Source of the DNA: Kineosporia babensis
GTDB lineage: Bacteria; Actinomycetota; Actinomycetes; Actinomycetales; Kineosporiaceae
Assembly (NCBI RefSeq): GCF_021129305.1
Contig: NZ_JAJOMB010000012.1
Coordinates: forward strand, 186,001 to 250,000
Length of the DNA: 64,000 bases
Reading direction: 5' to 3'
Shown: one piece after another, positions 45,248 to 49,034 of the stretch
Position numbering within the stretch: position 1 is the first letter of the stretch
Layout: every line of letters begins with the position of its first letter
Program-made: the position numbers and the translations under genes
Notes under the pieces: model-generated
Seen by the model: the letters and a program-made list of their open reading frames with translations, nothing else
Database searches by the model: none
Told to the model about the DNA's origin: nothing

Positions 45248-45597
45248 CTGGTAGCGGCGGGGGTGTCGGGCGGCGTCCATGGGCCGGGGGTTCGGGTTGA
45301 TGGTTTGCCAGACCGCGTCCGCCTTGCTAACTTGCCGAACATCATGGGCATTCTCTCGGCTACCGCGCTGACCTCTGGGTCGGCTCGCTCTGCCGTGCCC
45401 GCGCATCTGGGCCACGTGCATCATCGGCATGCCCATCACGGCGTCCATATCTCGCCGGTGGGTGCTGGCTCCTATTGAGCCTGCCGGGCCTGACCGGCCC
45501 GGGCGCACGGGCCAAGCCCGCACCGATCGGCGCCTTCGCTCCCGGCTGGGACGCATTCGCGGACCACGGCCGGATTTCGCCCCGCCCAATCCGTCAG

Positions 45598-46338
45598 ATG
45601 CATGGAAGGCCGTACGTGGGAACCCGGGAAGACGTTTACCAGCTGCTCGAAGAGAAGATGCTGAAGTACGCCGACTACGCCGAGGTTCCGGTGATCGAGG
45701 TGGACGAAGTCGTTCTCTTCGAACCGGTTCCGGCGCAGGGCGTGCTGCGGGTCGAGCACCACCCGCACGCGCGCAGCGAGCTCACCGGTGACGTGATCTA
45801 CGTCCGCCGGCCGGTCGTCGACATGCTCTACGCGGCCGGGCAGGAACTGAAGAACCTGGACCGCTCGCTGACTCTCAAGGTGGTCTACGGCTTCCGTCCG
45901 CTGGAGGACCAGACCCGGATCTTCGAGGCTGCGAAAGATGCTCTGCGCGGCCAGTATCCGAACGAGCCGGAGCTGACCGAGGCGGCGCACCGGAACGTCG
46001 CCGTGCCCGAGGTGGCCGGCTATCCGACCGGCGGCGCGGTGGCCGTGGAGATCCTGCGCGACGAGCAGCCGGTCGACATGGGCACCGCGGTGATGCAGGC
46101 CGACCGGGACGCGTTCACCTTCTCCCCGTTCGTCTCGCGGGAGGCCTGGGAGTACCGGCAGCTGCTGCGCCGGGCCATGATGGCGGCCGGCTTCGCGCCC
46201 TTCGACGGCGAGTGGTGGCACTTCTCGTACGGCGACAAGGAGTGGGCGCGGTACTACCGCCAGCCCGGCGCGCTGTACGACCAGGCCTCGTTCGCGGACG
46301 CGCAGAAGGTCGATCCCGATGCCGACCTGGCCCTCTGA
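45598..46338 (+). CDS. VanX-like (M15D) D-Ala-D-Ala dipeptidase homologue lacking zinc ligands
   Basis: 246 residues from ATG 45598; the start is uncertain because no ribosome-binding site is visible and the frame is open to TTG 45475. VYGFRPLEDQTRIFEAAK and DGEWWHFSYGDKEWARYY (the EWWH catalytic Glu and third-ligand His) are clear M15D features. The HxxGxAxD zinc motif, often HPTGGAVD, here reads YPTGGAVA, so both the His and the Asp ligand are lost. It is probably a catalytically dead or repurposed fold, perhaps binding peptidoglycan peptides (inference). Confidence 0.75.
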   Translation: MHGRPYVGTREDVYQLLEEKMLKYADYAEVPVIEVDEVVLFEPVPAQGVLRVEHHPHARSELTGDVIYVRRPVVDMLYAAGQELKNLDRSLTLKVVYGFRPLEDQTRIFEAAKDALRGQYPNEPELTEAAHRNVAVPEVAGYPTGGAVAVEILRDEQPVDMGTAVMQADRDAFTFSPFVSREAWEYRQLLRRAMMAAGFAPFDGEWWHFSYGDKEWARYYRQPGALYDQASFADAQKVDPDADLAL

Positions 46339-46400
46339 CGAAAGCGCCTGTGGGCGCCCGTTTCACACCCCGGCCAACAACCTGCTACTGTTCTCGGCGA

Positions 46401-46471
46401 GCCGGGATAGCTCAGTGGTAGAGCACCTGATTGTGGATCAGGAGGCGGGGGTTCGATACCCCCTCCCGGTA
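46401..46471 (+). tRNA. tRNA-His(GTG) lacking G-1 and C73
   Basis: A complete cloverleaf: acceptor GCCGGGA/TCCCGGT with G1-U72, D-stem GCTC/GAGC, anticodon stem CCTGA/TCAGG with loop TTGTGGA (anticodon GTG) and T-stem GGGGG/CCCCC. The discriminator is A73 (46471) and the base before position 1 is A, so the universal G-1:C73 identity pair of ordinary bacterial tRNA-His is missing. CCA is not encoded (CAA follows). The promoter TTCACA (46362) - 18 bp - TACTGT (46386) fits. It lies 71 bp before hisS. Confidence 0.9.
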
Positions 46472-46494
46472 CAAGAAGACCGTTCTCGTGTATC

Positions 46495-46527
46495 CTCGTG
46501 CGCCGGGCGTTCATTTCAGCGCACGAG
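46495..46527 (+). promoter_or_regulatory. 5'-leader hairpin before hisS
   Basis: CTCGTGCGC (46495-46503) pairs with GCGCACGAG (46519-46527), ending in the hisS ribosome-binding site CGAGGAAGG. It could mask translation initiation on transcripts reading through from the tRNA. A TATCCT -10 box at 46491 may give a shorter transcript that lacks most of the stem. Confidence 0.45.
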
Positions 46528-46542
46528 GAAGGCAATCCAGCG

Positions 46543-48024
46543 ATGACCGGCCTGGTCCGACCGCAGACCCTGCGAGGGTTCCGCGACCTGCTCCCCGAAG
46601 AGATGCTGCTTCGCGGCGAGGTAGTGGCCCGCATCACCCGGGTCTATGAGTCCTTCGGGTTCGTCCCGCTCGACACCCCGGTCCTGGAGACGCTGCCCAC
46701 CCTGCTCGGCAGCGGCGGCGAAGAGGCCGACAAGCAGATCTTCGTGGTCCGCGAGGCGGCGAAACCGGTTACCGCAGAAGGCGAAGCCACCGAGTTCGGG
46801 ATGCGCTTCGACCTCACCGTGCCGTTCGCCCGGATCATCGCCCAGTACCACCCGCAGCAGATCAAGCTGCCGTTCCGGCGCTACCACATCGGCCCGGTCT
46901 TCCGCGCCGACGACCCCCAGCCCGAGCAGGGCCGGTTCCGCCAGTTCACCCAGTTCGACGCGGACATCGCCGGCACCTCCACGGTCGCCGCCGACGCCGA
47001 GATCGTGGCCCTGGCCTCCGCCGCGTTCGAGGCGCTGGAGCTGACCGCCGGCAGCGGCTACGTCATCCGGGTGAACAACCGCAAGCTGGTGGACGCGTTC
47101 CTGACCGGCCTCGGGATCGAGGACGGCGAGGTCACCAAGCACGTGCTGCGGGTGCTCGACAAGTCCGACAAGATCACCGCCGAGGCGCTGCGGGCCGAGC
47201 TCGGCGAGGGGCGCTTCGATGTCTCCGGCGACCGGATCCGCGGGGTGGGCCTGGCCCCGGAGCTGATCGATCGGCTGCTGGCCTTCGTGGCGGTGCAGCA
47301 GGACACCCGGGCCAAGACGCTCGACGAGCTGGCCGGCCTGCTGCCCGAAGGTGATCCGGGGGTGGCCGAGGTGCGCGAGTTCCTGGCCCACCTGGAGGCG
47401 CTCGGGGTCAGTGAGGCCAGCGTGAAGCTGGACCCGGGTCTGGCCCGCGGTCTGGCGTACTACACCGGCACGGTCTACGAGGCCACGCTGGTCGGGGCCG
47501 GAGTGGGCTCGATCGGCGGCGGAGGCCGGTACGACGGGCTGGTCAGCCGGTTCAGCGACGACCCGGTGGCCGCCGTGGGTGTCTCGATCGGCATCGACCG
47601 GCTGCTGGCCGGGCTGAGCAACCTGGGCATCTCCTACGGCGCCCGCAGGACCACGGCCGATGCCGTGGTGCTGGTGATGCCCAAGGTCGACCCGGCCGAG
47701 GCCACGAGGATCGCGGCCGAGCTGCGGGCCGCCGGGATCGCCACCGAGCTGTACGTGGGCGAGTCGGTGGGCAAGGTGGGCAAGCAGCTGGCCTACGCCA
47801 ACGCCCAGGGCTTCGCGGTCGCCGTGATGGCCGGCGGCAAGGAGATCGAGGCGGGCACCGTCACGATCAAGGACCTGCAGGCCGGCAGCGAGTCCCGGGC
47901 CCAGATCGCGGACAACAGCGAGTACCGCGCGGCCAAGTCGGCCGGGCAGTTCACCGTGCCCCGCGCCGAGCTCGTAGCCACCGTGACCTCAGTGCTGAAC
48001 CCGCAGGAGAGCGACGCATCATGA
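46543..48024 (+). CDS. hisS: Histidyl-tRNA synthetase, atypical (alphaproteobacterial/eukaryote-like) type
   Basis: 493 residues from ATG 46543 (CGAGGAAGG upstream). The class II core has motif 2 FRRYHIGPVFRADDPQPEQGRFRQF, followed by QFDADIAG. The histidine motifs are ARGLAYYTGTVYEA and GGGGRYDGL, and the C-terminal anticodon domain runs from ADAVVLVMPKVD to the end. The catalytic signatures are intact, so it is a synthetase rather than HisZ. The DLTVPFAR block, the YHIGPVFRAD...QFDADIAG pattern and the length (~490 rather than ~425) differ from standard actinobacterial HisRS and recall the alphaproteobacterial and eukaryotic types. It sits beside a matching odd tRNA-His and overlaps hisG by 4 bp. 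Confidence 0.9.
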   Translation: MTGLVRPQTLRGFRDLLPEEMLLRGEVVARITRVYESFGFVPLDTPVLETLPTLLGSGGEEADKQIFVVREAAKPVTAEGEATEFGMRFDLTVPFARIIAQYHPQQIKLPFRRYHIGPVFRADDPQPEQGRFRQFTQFDADIAGTSTVAADAEIVALASAAFEALELTAGSGYVIRVNNRKLVDAFLTGLGIEDGEVTKHVLRVLDKSDKITAEALRAELGEGRFDVSGDRIRGVGLAPELIDRLLAFVAVQQDTRAKTLDELAGLLPEGDPGVAEVREFLAHLEALGVSEASVKLDPGLARGLAYYTGTVYEATLVGAGVGSIGGGGRYDGLVSRFSDDPVAAVGVSIGIDRLLAGLSNLGISYGARRTTADAVVLVMPKVDPAEATRIAAELRAAGIATELYVGESVGKVGKQLAYANAQGFAVAVMAGGKEIEAGTVTIKDLQAGSESRAQIADNSEYRAAKSAGQFTVPRAELVATVTSVLNPQESDAS

Positions 48025-49034
48025 GCCAGAAGCAGATCACCCTGGGCATCCCCAAGGGCAGCCTCCAGCAGTCCACCCTCGGCATCTTCGAGCGGGTCGG
48101 CCTGCAGTTCACCGGCGGCTCGCGCACCCTGTGGCTGAGCTCGAACGACCCGGAGATCGTGCCGGTGCTGCTCAAGCCGCAGGAGATCCCGATCTACGTG
48201 AAGTCGGGCCGGCTCGACGCCGGGCTGTCCGGCCGGGACTGGATCGTCGAGACCGAGGTGCTGGAGCACATCGCGGTGAAGGCCGAACTGCCGTTCTCCC
48301 GGCAGACCTCGCGCCCGATCCGCTGGGTGCTGGCGGTGCCGCAGTCCTCGCCGATCAAGACCGTGGAGGACCTGCGGGCCGAGTGCGACCGCCGCCGGCT
48401 CAGCGGCGATCCGTTCGTGATCTCCACCGAGCTGACCCGGATCTCCCGGATGTGGCTGGCCCGGCAGGGCGTGGACGCGCACGTGGAGTTCTCCTGGGGC
48501 GCCACCGAGGCCAAGGCGGAGTACTTCGCCGACGCCATCATCGAGGGCACCGAGACCGGGAACTCGCTGCGGGCCAACCACCTTCGCGAGATCGCCGAGG
48601 TGTTCAGCTCGACCAACCAGTTCTTCGTCAGCCGCAAGATCTACCGCGACGACGAGTGGAAGCGCGGCAAGCTGGACGCGATCTCGCACCTGATCCGGGG
48701 CGCGCTGCGGGCCAACGACGTGGTCGAGCTGCGGGTGGTGGCCGACAAGCCGCTGCCGCTGGAGGAGATCCTGGGCCCGGAGGCCCGGGTGGTCGCGGCC
48801 TCGGAAGCCACTCCGGGGCAGGGCTTCACGGCCACCGCCACGCTGCCGCGGGCGTCCGTTCCCTACGCCATGCCCGCGGTGATCGCGGCTGGTGCGACCG
48901 ACGCCTGGGTCTCGCCGATGTCGATCTACTACAGCCACGAGTACGACGCCACGTCGAAGGCCGCGGCCGAGGCTCGCAACGCCAGCGCCAGCCTGCCTTT
49001 GGGACCGATGGCCCCCTCGGCGACCACCGCGTAG
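48021..49034 (+). CDS. hisG: ATP phosphoribosyltransferase (HisG) homologue, long form
   Basis: 337 residues from ATG 48021 (ATGA overlap with hisS). ITLGIPKGSLQQSTLGIFERVGL is the N-terminal PRPP/ATP-binding strand, GRLDAGLSGRDWIVE the hinge, and DAIIEGTETGNSLRANHLREI the HisG catalytic signature. The last ~85 residues, with GATDAWVSPMSIYYS, resemble the HisG_C regulatory domain, so HisZ should not be needed. The enzyme commits ATP and PRPP to histidine synthesis. The sequence is divergent, and pairing with hisS instead of hisE/hisI is unusual; a specialised paralogue is possible. Confidence 0.8.
   Translation: MSQKQITLGIPKGSLQQSTLGIFERVGLQFTGGSRTLWLSSNDPEIVPVLLKPQEIPIYVKSGRLDAGLSGRDWIVETEVLEHIAVKAELPFSRQTSRPIRWVLAVPQSSPIKTVEDLRAECDRRRLSGDPFVISTELTRISRMWLARQGVDAHVEFSWGATEAKAEYFADAIIEGTETGNSLRANHLREIAEVFSSTNQFFVSRKIYRDDEWKRGKLDAISHLIRGALRANDVVELRVVADKPLPLEEILGPEARVVAASEATPGQGFTATATLPRASVPYAMPAVIAAGATDAWVSPMSIYYSHEYDATSKAAAEARNASASLPLGPMAPSATTA

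Follow-up and report, generated by a model that had tools for sequence, protein, structure and literature searches.

A tRNA-His gene and a histidyl-tRNA synthetase gene (hisS) lie side by side on the plus strand of a stretch of 64,000 nucleotides (nt) from Kineosporia babensis (assembly GCF_021129305.1, contig NZ_JAJOMB010000012.1, positions 186,001 to 250,000), hereafter the window, and neither the tRNA nor the enzyme (HisRS) is of the ordinary actinobacterial kind. ARAGORN placed the tRNA gene, with the anticodon GUG, at 46401-46472, and Rfam RF00005 matched 46401-46471 with 73.7 bits. Read from the sequence, position -1 is A (base 46400), U72 lies opposite G1, C2 pairs with G71, the discriminator is A73 (base 46471), and CCA is not encoded. 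hisS (46543..48024) follows A73 after a spacer of 71 nt (46472..46542) and encodes 493 amino acids (aa); its end at 48024 overlaps the start of hisG (48021..49034) by the four bases ATGA. The protein matched the NCBIfam hisS model TIGR00442 with 344.1 bits, above the cut-off of 286.75, as well as PF13393 and PF03129. HisZ or another paralogue was rejected as its identity, the HisZ models scoring below their own cut-offs. An AlphaFold model from a 4-row alignment had a mean pLDDT (predicted local distance difference test) of 48.5 and was not used. An earlier note had described a tRNA with G1-U72, A73 and A-1 and, 71 nt downstream, a 493-aa HisRS overlapping hisG; ARAGORN, Rfam and the sequence bore this out, and the spacer measured 71 nt in 6/6 Kineosporia genomes.

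A second hisS and a normal tRNA-His were looked for throughout the window genome (9.4 Mb; assembly 99.27% complete, 3.07% contamination), as the earlier note had proposed, and none was found. ARAGORN assigned a type to all 59 tRNA places, and only that in the window was a tRNA-His (1/59). Likewise, PF13393, the core of HisRS and HisZ, matched once genome-wide, in the window HisRS. With each of them the only match in a 99% complete genome, the pair cannot be accessory and has to decode histidine. An extra pair beside a normal one was thereby rejected. The matched non-canonical pair that had been proposed is indeed present, as a replacement of the normal pair rather than an addition to it.

The pair is real, genus-wide and non-canonical, with a motif-2 loop of its own and a linked tRNA gene. 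HisRS of this type was present in 6/6 Kineosporia genomes, including the single-contig genome G004, with one match per genome at E 0.001, and the five others were 82-93% identical to the window HisRS. The 72-base tRNA-His gene was identical in all six genomes, so chance or mis-annotation is very unlikely. The nearest named HisRS record was that of K. rhizophila (93% identity), followed by that of K. mesophila (81%). The family's seven other genomes had a tRNA-His with G-1 and C73 (7/7) and a best HisRS match of 35-39% identity. One genome of another genus in the family (G006) had two long HisRS-like matches (L086 and L087, 35% and 31% identical), which may reflect a paralogue, a HisZ or an assembly effect.

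A tRNA-His/HisRS pair without G-1 is reportedly found in the RRCH alphaproteobacteria (Rhizobiales, Rhodobacterales, Caulobacterales), where it is said to have been described by Ardell & Andersson in 2006, Wang et al. in 2007 and Yuan et al. in 2011. The sole match in four alphaproteobacterial records searched was a Shinella tRNA-His with T-1, G1-U72 and A73, so that these alphaproteobacterial features are directly confirmed for one species. The Kineosporia pair resembles this system in that G-1 is not encoded, in having G1-U72 and A73, in the C-terminal extension of its HisRS and in having replaced the ordinary pair. The ordinary actinobacterial HisRS has the same catalytic and anticodon-binding domain families, but its pair shows G-1, C73, a loop GERPQE or similar and no extension, and no tRNA gene was seen in the flanks of the ordinary hisS that were read (up to 1.5 kb). 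An ordinary HisRS with a mutated tRNA was rejected as an explanation because the whole tRNA body differs, with 53-55/71 positions identical to three ordinary actinobacterial tRNA-His. An origin from one of the genome's other tRNAs was also rejected; the best-scoring of these was 54/71 identical (among the best 14 of 54 distinct sequences).

HisRS sequences were aligned in 77 rows, with two loci of broken or short reading frames (L134, L138) left out beforehand and no eukaryotic sequence among the rows. For a 55-row tree, 22 of the 77 rows, actinobacterial near-duplicates picked by hand, were dropped, and for a 48-row tree 7 more, long or outgroup, were removed. In the 55-row tree, nine HisRSs formed one clade (support 100/100), hereafter the Kin group: those of the six Kineosporia genomes, of two further actinobacterial genomes (G635 and G698) and of HOG111, a metagenome-assembled genome (MAG). 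Eight alphaproteobacterial HisRSs formed another clade together with that of the actinobacterial genome G662 (100/100), and the two clades joined with 89/83. The ordinary Actinomycetes HisRSs (15 rows) constituted a separate clade (100/99). The approximately unbiased (AU) test rejected the grouping of the Kin group with the latter (p 0.003; 0.006 without the long rows). The pair is thus not an ordinary one, which would combine G-1:C73 with a HisRS in the ordinary Actinomycetes clade: it has A-1 and A73, and the claim that its HisRS is not the usual actinobacterial enzyme held when placement inside the ordinary type was tested.

A C-terminal extension after the anticodon domain (about residues 454-493; 47902..48021, plus strand; core IADNSEYRAAKSAGQ) is common to the window HisRS and the RRCH enzymes. 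At least 9 of the 12 core columns were filled in 18/18 rows of the Kin group, the alphaproteobacteria and G662, as against 0/59 of the others, by a criterion defined in this analysis and not taken from print. The extension, and weakly the tree, make it likely, though not proven, that the Kin HisRS is akin to the alphaproteobacterial type. For the latter, a eukaryotic origin is mentioned in PMC3937112.

The motif-2 loop, by contrast, sets the Kin group apart from the RRCH enzymes, with ADDPQPEQ in Kineosporia versus NEKPGP in RRCH. In the alignment of 77 HisRSs it corresponds to residues 121-135 of the window protein (46903..46947, plus strand; RADDPQPEQGRFRQF). The nine Kin-group rows carry the loop ADDPQPEQGRFRQF, which exceeds that of the 68 rows outside the group by two residues. 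With E. coli Arg116 and Gln118 as reference positions in motif 2 of HisRS, the group has Asp at Arg116 and, by alignment, keeps Gln at Gln118 (9/9 rows). The alphaproteobacterial rows and G662 share (N/R)EKPGPGRFRQF, with Y at the second F position in one row, and have Gly at Gln118 (8/8 alphaproteobacterial rows and G662). According to PMC3937112, a conserved Gln (Gln123 there) contacts G-1:C73 and the RRCH enzymes have Gly123, taken here as the column of E. coli Q118; this exchange of Gln for Gly is absent from the Kin group. Gly at this column alone is no marker of G-1 loss, because 18 of the 59 other rows also have it and the four such genomes that were read (G187, G369, G529 and G586, with HisRS L093, L124, L129 and L116) have a tRNA-His with G-1 and C73 (4/4; tRNA rows L155, L159, L160 and L161). 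A limit is thereby set on the use of this Gly as a marker of the switch.

The Kineosporia pair shares with the eukaryotic system A73 and a loop of equal length without Arg at E. coli position 116, reading RADDPQPEQGR versus RRDNPAMTRGR in chain 4g84, which we take to be human cytoplasmic HisRS. However, the window HisRS scored lower against 4g84 (171 bits) than against 3net, presumably from Nostoc, or 6nhi (213 bits each). The earlier note had likened motif 2 to both the alphaproteobacterial and the eukaryotic types; the length of the loop agrees with the eukaryotic half of that comparison, and its sequence is unlike the alphaproteobacterial one.

Further carriers were sought in samples of actinobacterial genomes, in a plasmid collection and, by a single narrow scan, among named genome contigs. 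A sample of the class (296 genomes), which can miss others, gave no further carrier; seven HisRSs passed E 1e-60, and all but the window's own were 37-39% identical and had no C-terminal extension. In a sample of the phylum (396 genomes), 22 passed E 1e-63, and three of these had the extension, namely the window's own, that of G635 (63% identical) and that of G662 (43%). Among 66 genomes from the class to which G635 belongs (E 1e-74), the type was confined to the genus of G635, represented by G635 and G698. These two genomes and G662 belong to the same phylum as Kineosporia but to another class. HOG111, labelled Micromonosporaceae, has a HisRS 58% identical to that of the window and came from the named-contig scan, which used six short exact peptide patterns, with 3/61 stretches confirmed, and from which absence elsewhere cannot be inferred. 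The pair had been ascribed to "an actinobacterium"; this scope has to be widened to the whole genus Kineosporia and to related cassettes in other actinobacterial lineages.

G635, G698, G662 and HOG111 each had one PF13393 match, and A73 lay 52-59 nt before hisS in all four. Their tRNA-His showed A-1, G1-U72 and A73 in G635 and G698, C-1, G1-U72 and A73 in G662, and T-1, G1-C72 and A73 in HOG111. G1-U72 together with A73 was thus seen in Kineosporia, G635/G698 and G662 as well as in Shinella, an alphaproteobacterium; a member of the group can do without U72, as the C72 of HOG111 shows. The Kineosporia tRNA-His matched that of G635 at 64/71 positions and that of HOG111 at 61/71; with 11 other distinct tRNA-His (among the best 14 of 16) it had no more than 58/71 in common. 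In these two related linked pairs, identity to Kineosporia was 86-90% for the tRNA and 58-63% for HisRS, and both followed the same pattern (64/71 and 61/71 in step with 63% and 58%), as expected for one transferred unit. The surroundings are partly shared as well. The G635 locus has an upstream M15 peptidase gene (53% identical) and a downstream hisG (61%), the G698 locus has the M15 gene and a hisG cut by the contig end, and the HOG111 locus shares hisG (65%). G662 (L112), a single contig of 99% completeness from another class, has a HisRS of alphaproteobacterial type (EKPGPGRFRQF) and a matching G1-U72/A73 tRNA-His 52 nt upstream of hisS.

The patchy distribution suggests transfer of the pair, which probably moved as a tRNA-synthetase cassette. 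We consider it most likely that this is a complete and working, probably horizontally acquired histidine-identity pair and that the native G-1:C73 pair was displaced in the Kineosporia ancestor by a linked cassette. In that ancestor, a linked tRNA-His-hisS(-hisG) cassette without an encoded G-1 would have ousted the native tRNA-His and HisRS. RNase P would most likely make its standard cut before G1, and HisRS would identify the tRNA through its GUG anticodon and A73, probably together with U72, rather than through G-1:C73. PMC9976931 and PMC7590224 name A73, U72 and the anticodon as determinants of the alphaproteobacterial HisRS. As judged from the sequences, the Kin-type motif-2 loop may be what reads A73/U72, and the pair would be orthogonal, not cross-reacting with normal HisRS/tRNA pairs.

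Several observations weigh against the displacement of the native pair by such a cassette or against its alphaproteobacterial kinship. Apart from the extension, the evidence for the alphaproteobacterial link is a tree branch whose support falls from 89/83 to 58/27 without the long rows. The AU test keeps a grouping of the alphaproteobacterial type with a second actinobacterial HisRS type (p 0.097), represented by 10 rows, 8 from other classes and 2 from the same class. HOG111 with its G1-C72 means that U72 is not universal in the Kin group, and a second pair could have been missed in G635 (84% complete), G698 (61%) and the MAG HOG111. Furthermore, the window genome itself encodes a protein like Thg1, the enzyme that adds G-1 to eukaryotic tRNA-His. 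The low branch support and the AU result would also suit an independent origin in actinobacteria, by which an actinobacterial HisRS, such as one of the second type, which occurs mainly in other classes, adapted to an A73 tRNA and has no special alphaproteobacterial kinship; the Kin motif-2 loop, unlike the alphaproteobacterial one, points in the same direction. Such an origin is nonetheless unlikely, given the strict distribution of the C-terminal extension and the AU test, which marginally rejected the Kin group with the second type (p 0.045) in addition to rejecting it with the ordinary Actinomycetes type.

Direct transfer from an alphaproteobacterium to Kineosporia would fit the plasmid collection, in which the 18 best plasmid or chromid matches were alphaproteobacterial HisRSs (identity 34.6-40.6%, query coverage 96-99%). 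However, this identity reaches at most about 41%, and the Kin group lies in a separate clade outside the RRCH one; its grouping with the alphaproteobacteria without G662 was rejected (p 9e-7). The loci also differ. Kineosporia has hisS-hisG without hisZ, whereas the order in annotated alphaproteobacterial records is hisS-hisZ-hisG, and its hisG is longer and 28-33% identical over part of the length. The tRNA gene adjoins hisS in Kineosporia, while no tRNA gene was present in eight alphaproteobacterial hisS loci (L098-L105). Direct transfer is thus strongly disfavoured, with a minimal chance of being correct. With its different motif-2 loop, the Kineosporia pair is a second branch of the G-1-less solution, not the alphaproteobacterial pair itself. 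A broader idea, which we put forward tentatively and with some doubt, is that the G-1-less tRNA-His/HisRS pair might be a mobile identity-switch cassette born outside the alphaproteobacteria, with two motif-2 solutions within it. The RRCH group would then have received tRNA and enzyme together instead of remodelling its own tRNA, and the linked state would have been kept in actinobacteria (Kineosporia, G635/G698, HOG111 and G662).

G-1 might alternatively be added after transcription, opposite A73, by a Thg1-like enzyme acting as in eukaryotes, in which case HisRS would still read G-1. According to PMC6471195, eukaryotic tRNA-His receives G-1 from Thg1, which acts on A73 tRNAs; the same source states that those homologues from bacteria and archaea that have been studied favour the repair of truncated tRNAs with Watson-Crick pairs. 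The eukaryotic route differs from what we propose for Kineosporia. The window genome does contain a gene for a Thg1-like tRNA-His guanylyltransferase of 255 aa (L178 9643-10410, minus strand; G000 contig C23 437643-438410), which matched PF04446 (E 5e-24) and PHROG 4717, tRNA-His guanylyltransferase (242 bits), and the motif-2 loop of Kineosporia has the eukaryotic length. However, this gene probably lies within a prophage, because it stands between phage tail and head genes (tail tape-measure and head maturation protease); two of nine neighbouring reading frames matched PHROGs. Related Thg1-like proteins were found in 127 phage records, including phages of Caulobacter, Brevundimonas and Sinorhizobium, which we take to be genera of the G-1-less alphaproteobacterial clade. 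No Thg1 match was found in 5/5 other Kineosporia genomes and 4/4 other carriers (9/10 carriers in all, G635 and G698 being the incomplete genomes noted above), and the pair therefore very likely works without Thg1 in those species. Addition of G-1 after transcription, which the earlier note had named as an observation that would overturn its proposal, is thus made unlikely; we give it only a slim chance for the Kineosporia pair, in preference to which we retain recognition of A73 without G-1.

No report of this pair was found among the best-ranked open-access papers on tRNA-His or tRNA synthetases in Kineosporia and on tRNA-His, HisRS, G-1 and A73 in alphaproteobacteria or actinobacteria. The published accounts consulted restrict bacterial G-1 loss to alphaproteobacteria, or, in PMC3937112, call this loss a likely single event. 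Kineosporia appears to be a second lineage in which the change of the tRNA-His identity signal can be studied. Because this carrier group is phylogenetically separate and differs in its motif-2 loop, it can be used to ask what has to change in the protein for A73 to be read when G-1 is missing, and whether the synthetase travels with its tRNA. The pairs are also candidates for orthogonal HisRS/tRNA systems in work on the genetic code.

hisG, the co-linear partner in the cassette, encodes an ATP phosphoribosyltransferase and is the sole PF01634 match of the genome; no hisZ was found in the window genome, PF13393 having no second match. hisG follows hisS in G635 and HOG111 as well as in all six Kineosporia genomes, and G698 has a truncated part of it at this place. 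This sole HisG is unusual in having 337 aa and no HisG_C match. In pairwise comparisons, on which its kinship was assessed, its best solved relative was 2vd3, presumably archaeal, with 60 bits, and the chains 5lht and 1nh7, which we take to be M. tuberculosis HisG, reached only 27 bits.

Upstream of the tRNA gene lies a gene for an M15 (D-Ala-D-Ala dipeptidase-like) peptidase (45475..46338, plus strand; PF01427). G635 and G698 likewise have it ahead of the pair (52-53% identical), and no match to it was found within the HOG111 locus. The spacer between the tRNA gene and hisS contains an 11-bp hairpin (46493-46529; 46493-46503 with 46519-46529), the 3' arm of which shares bases with the likely Shine-Dalgarno sequence. 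Across the six Kineosporia genomes, 93.9% of 66 cells of the stem pair, compared with 33-62% when the partner is slid. No pair had changed on both sides, and in a control 500/500 shuffles attained the values observed; the hairpin is conserved but without covariation. It may be a control element for hisS.

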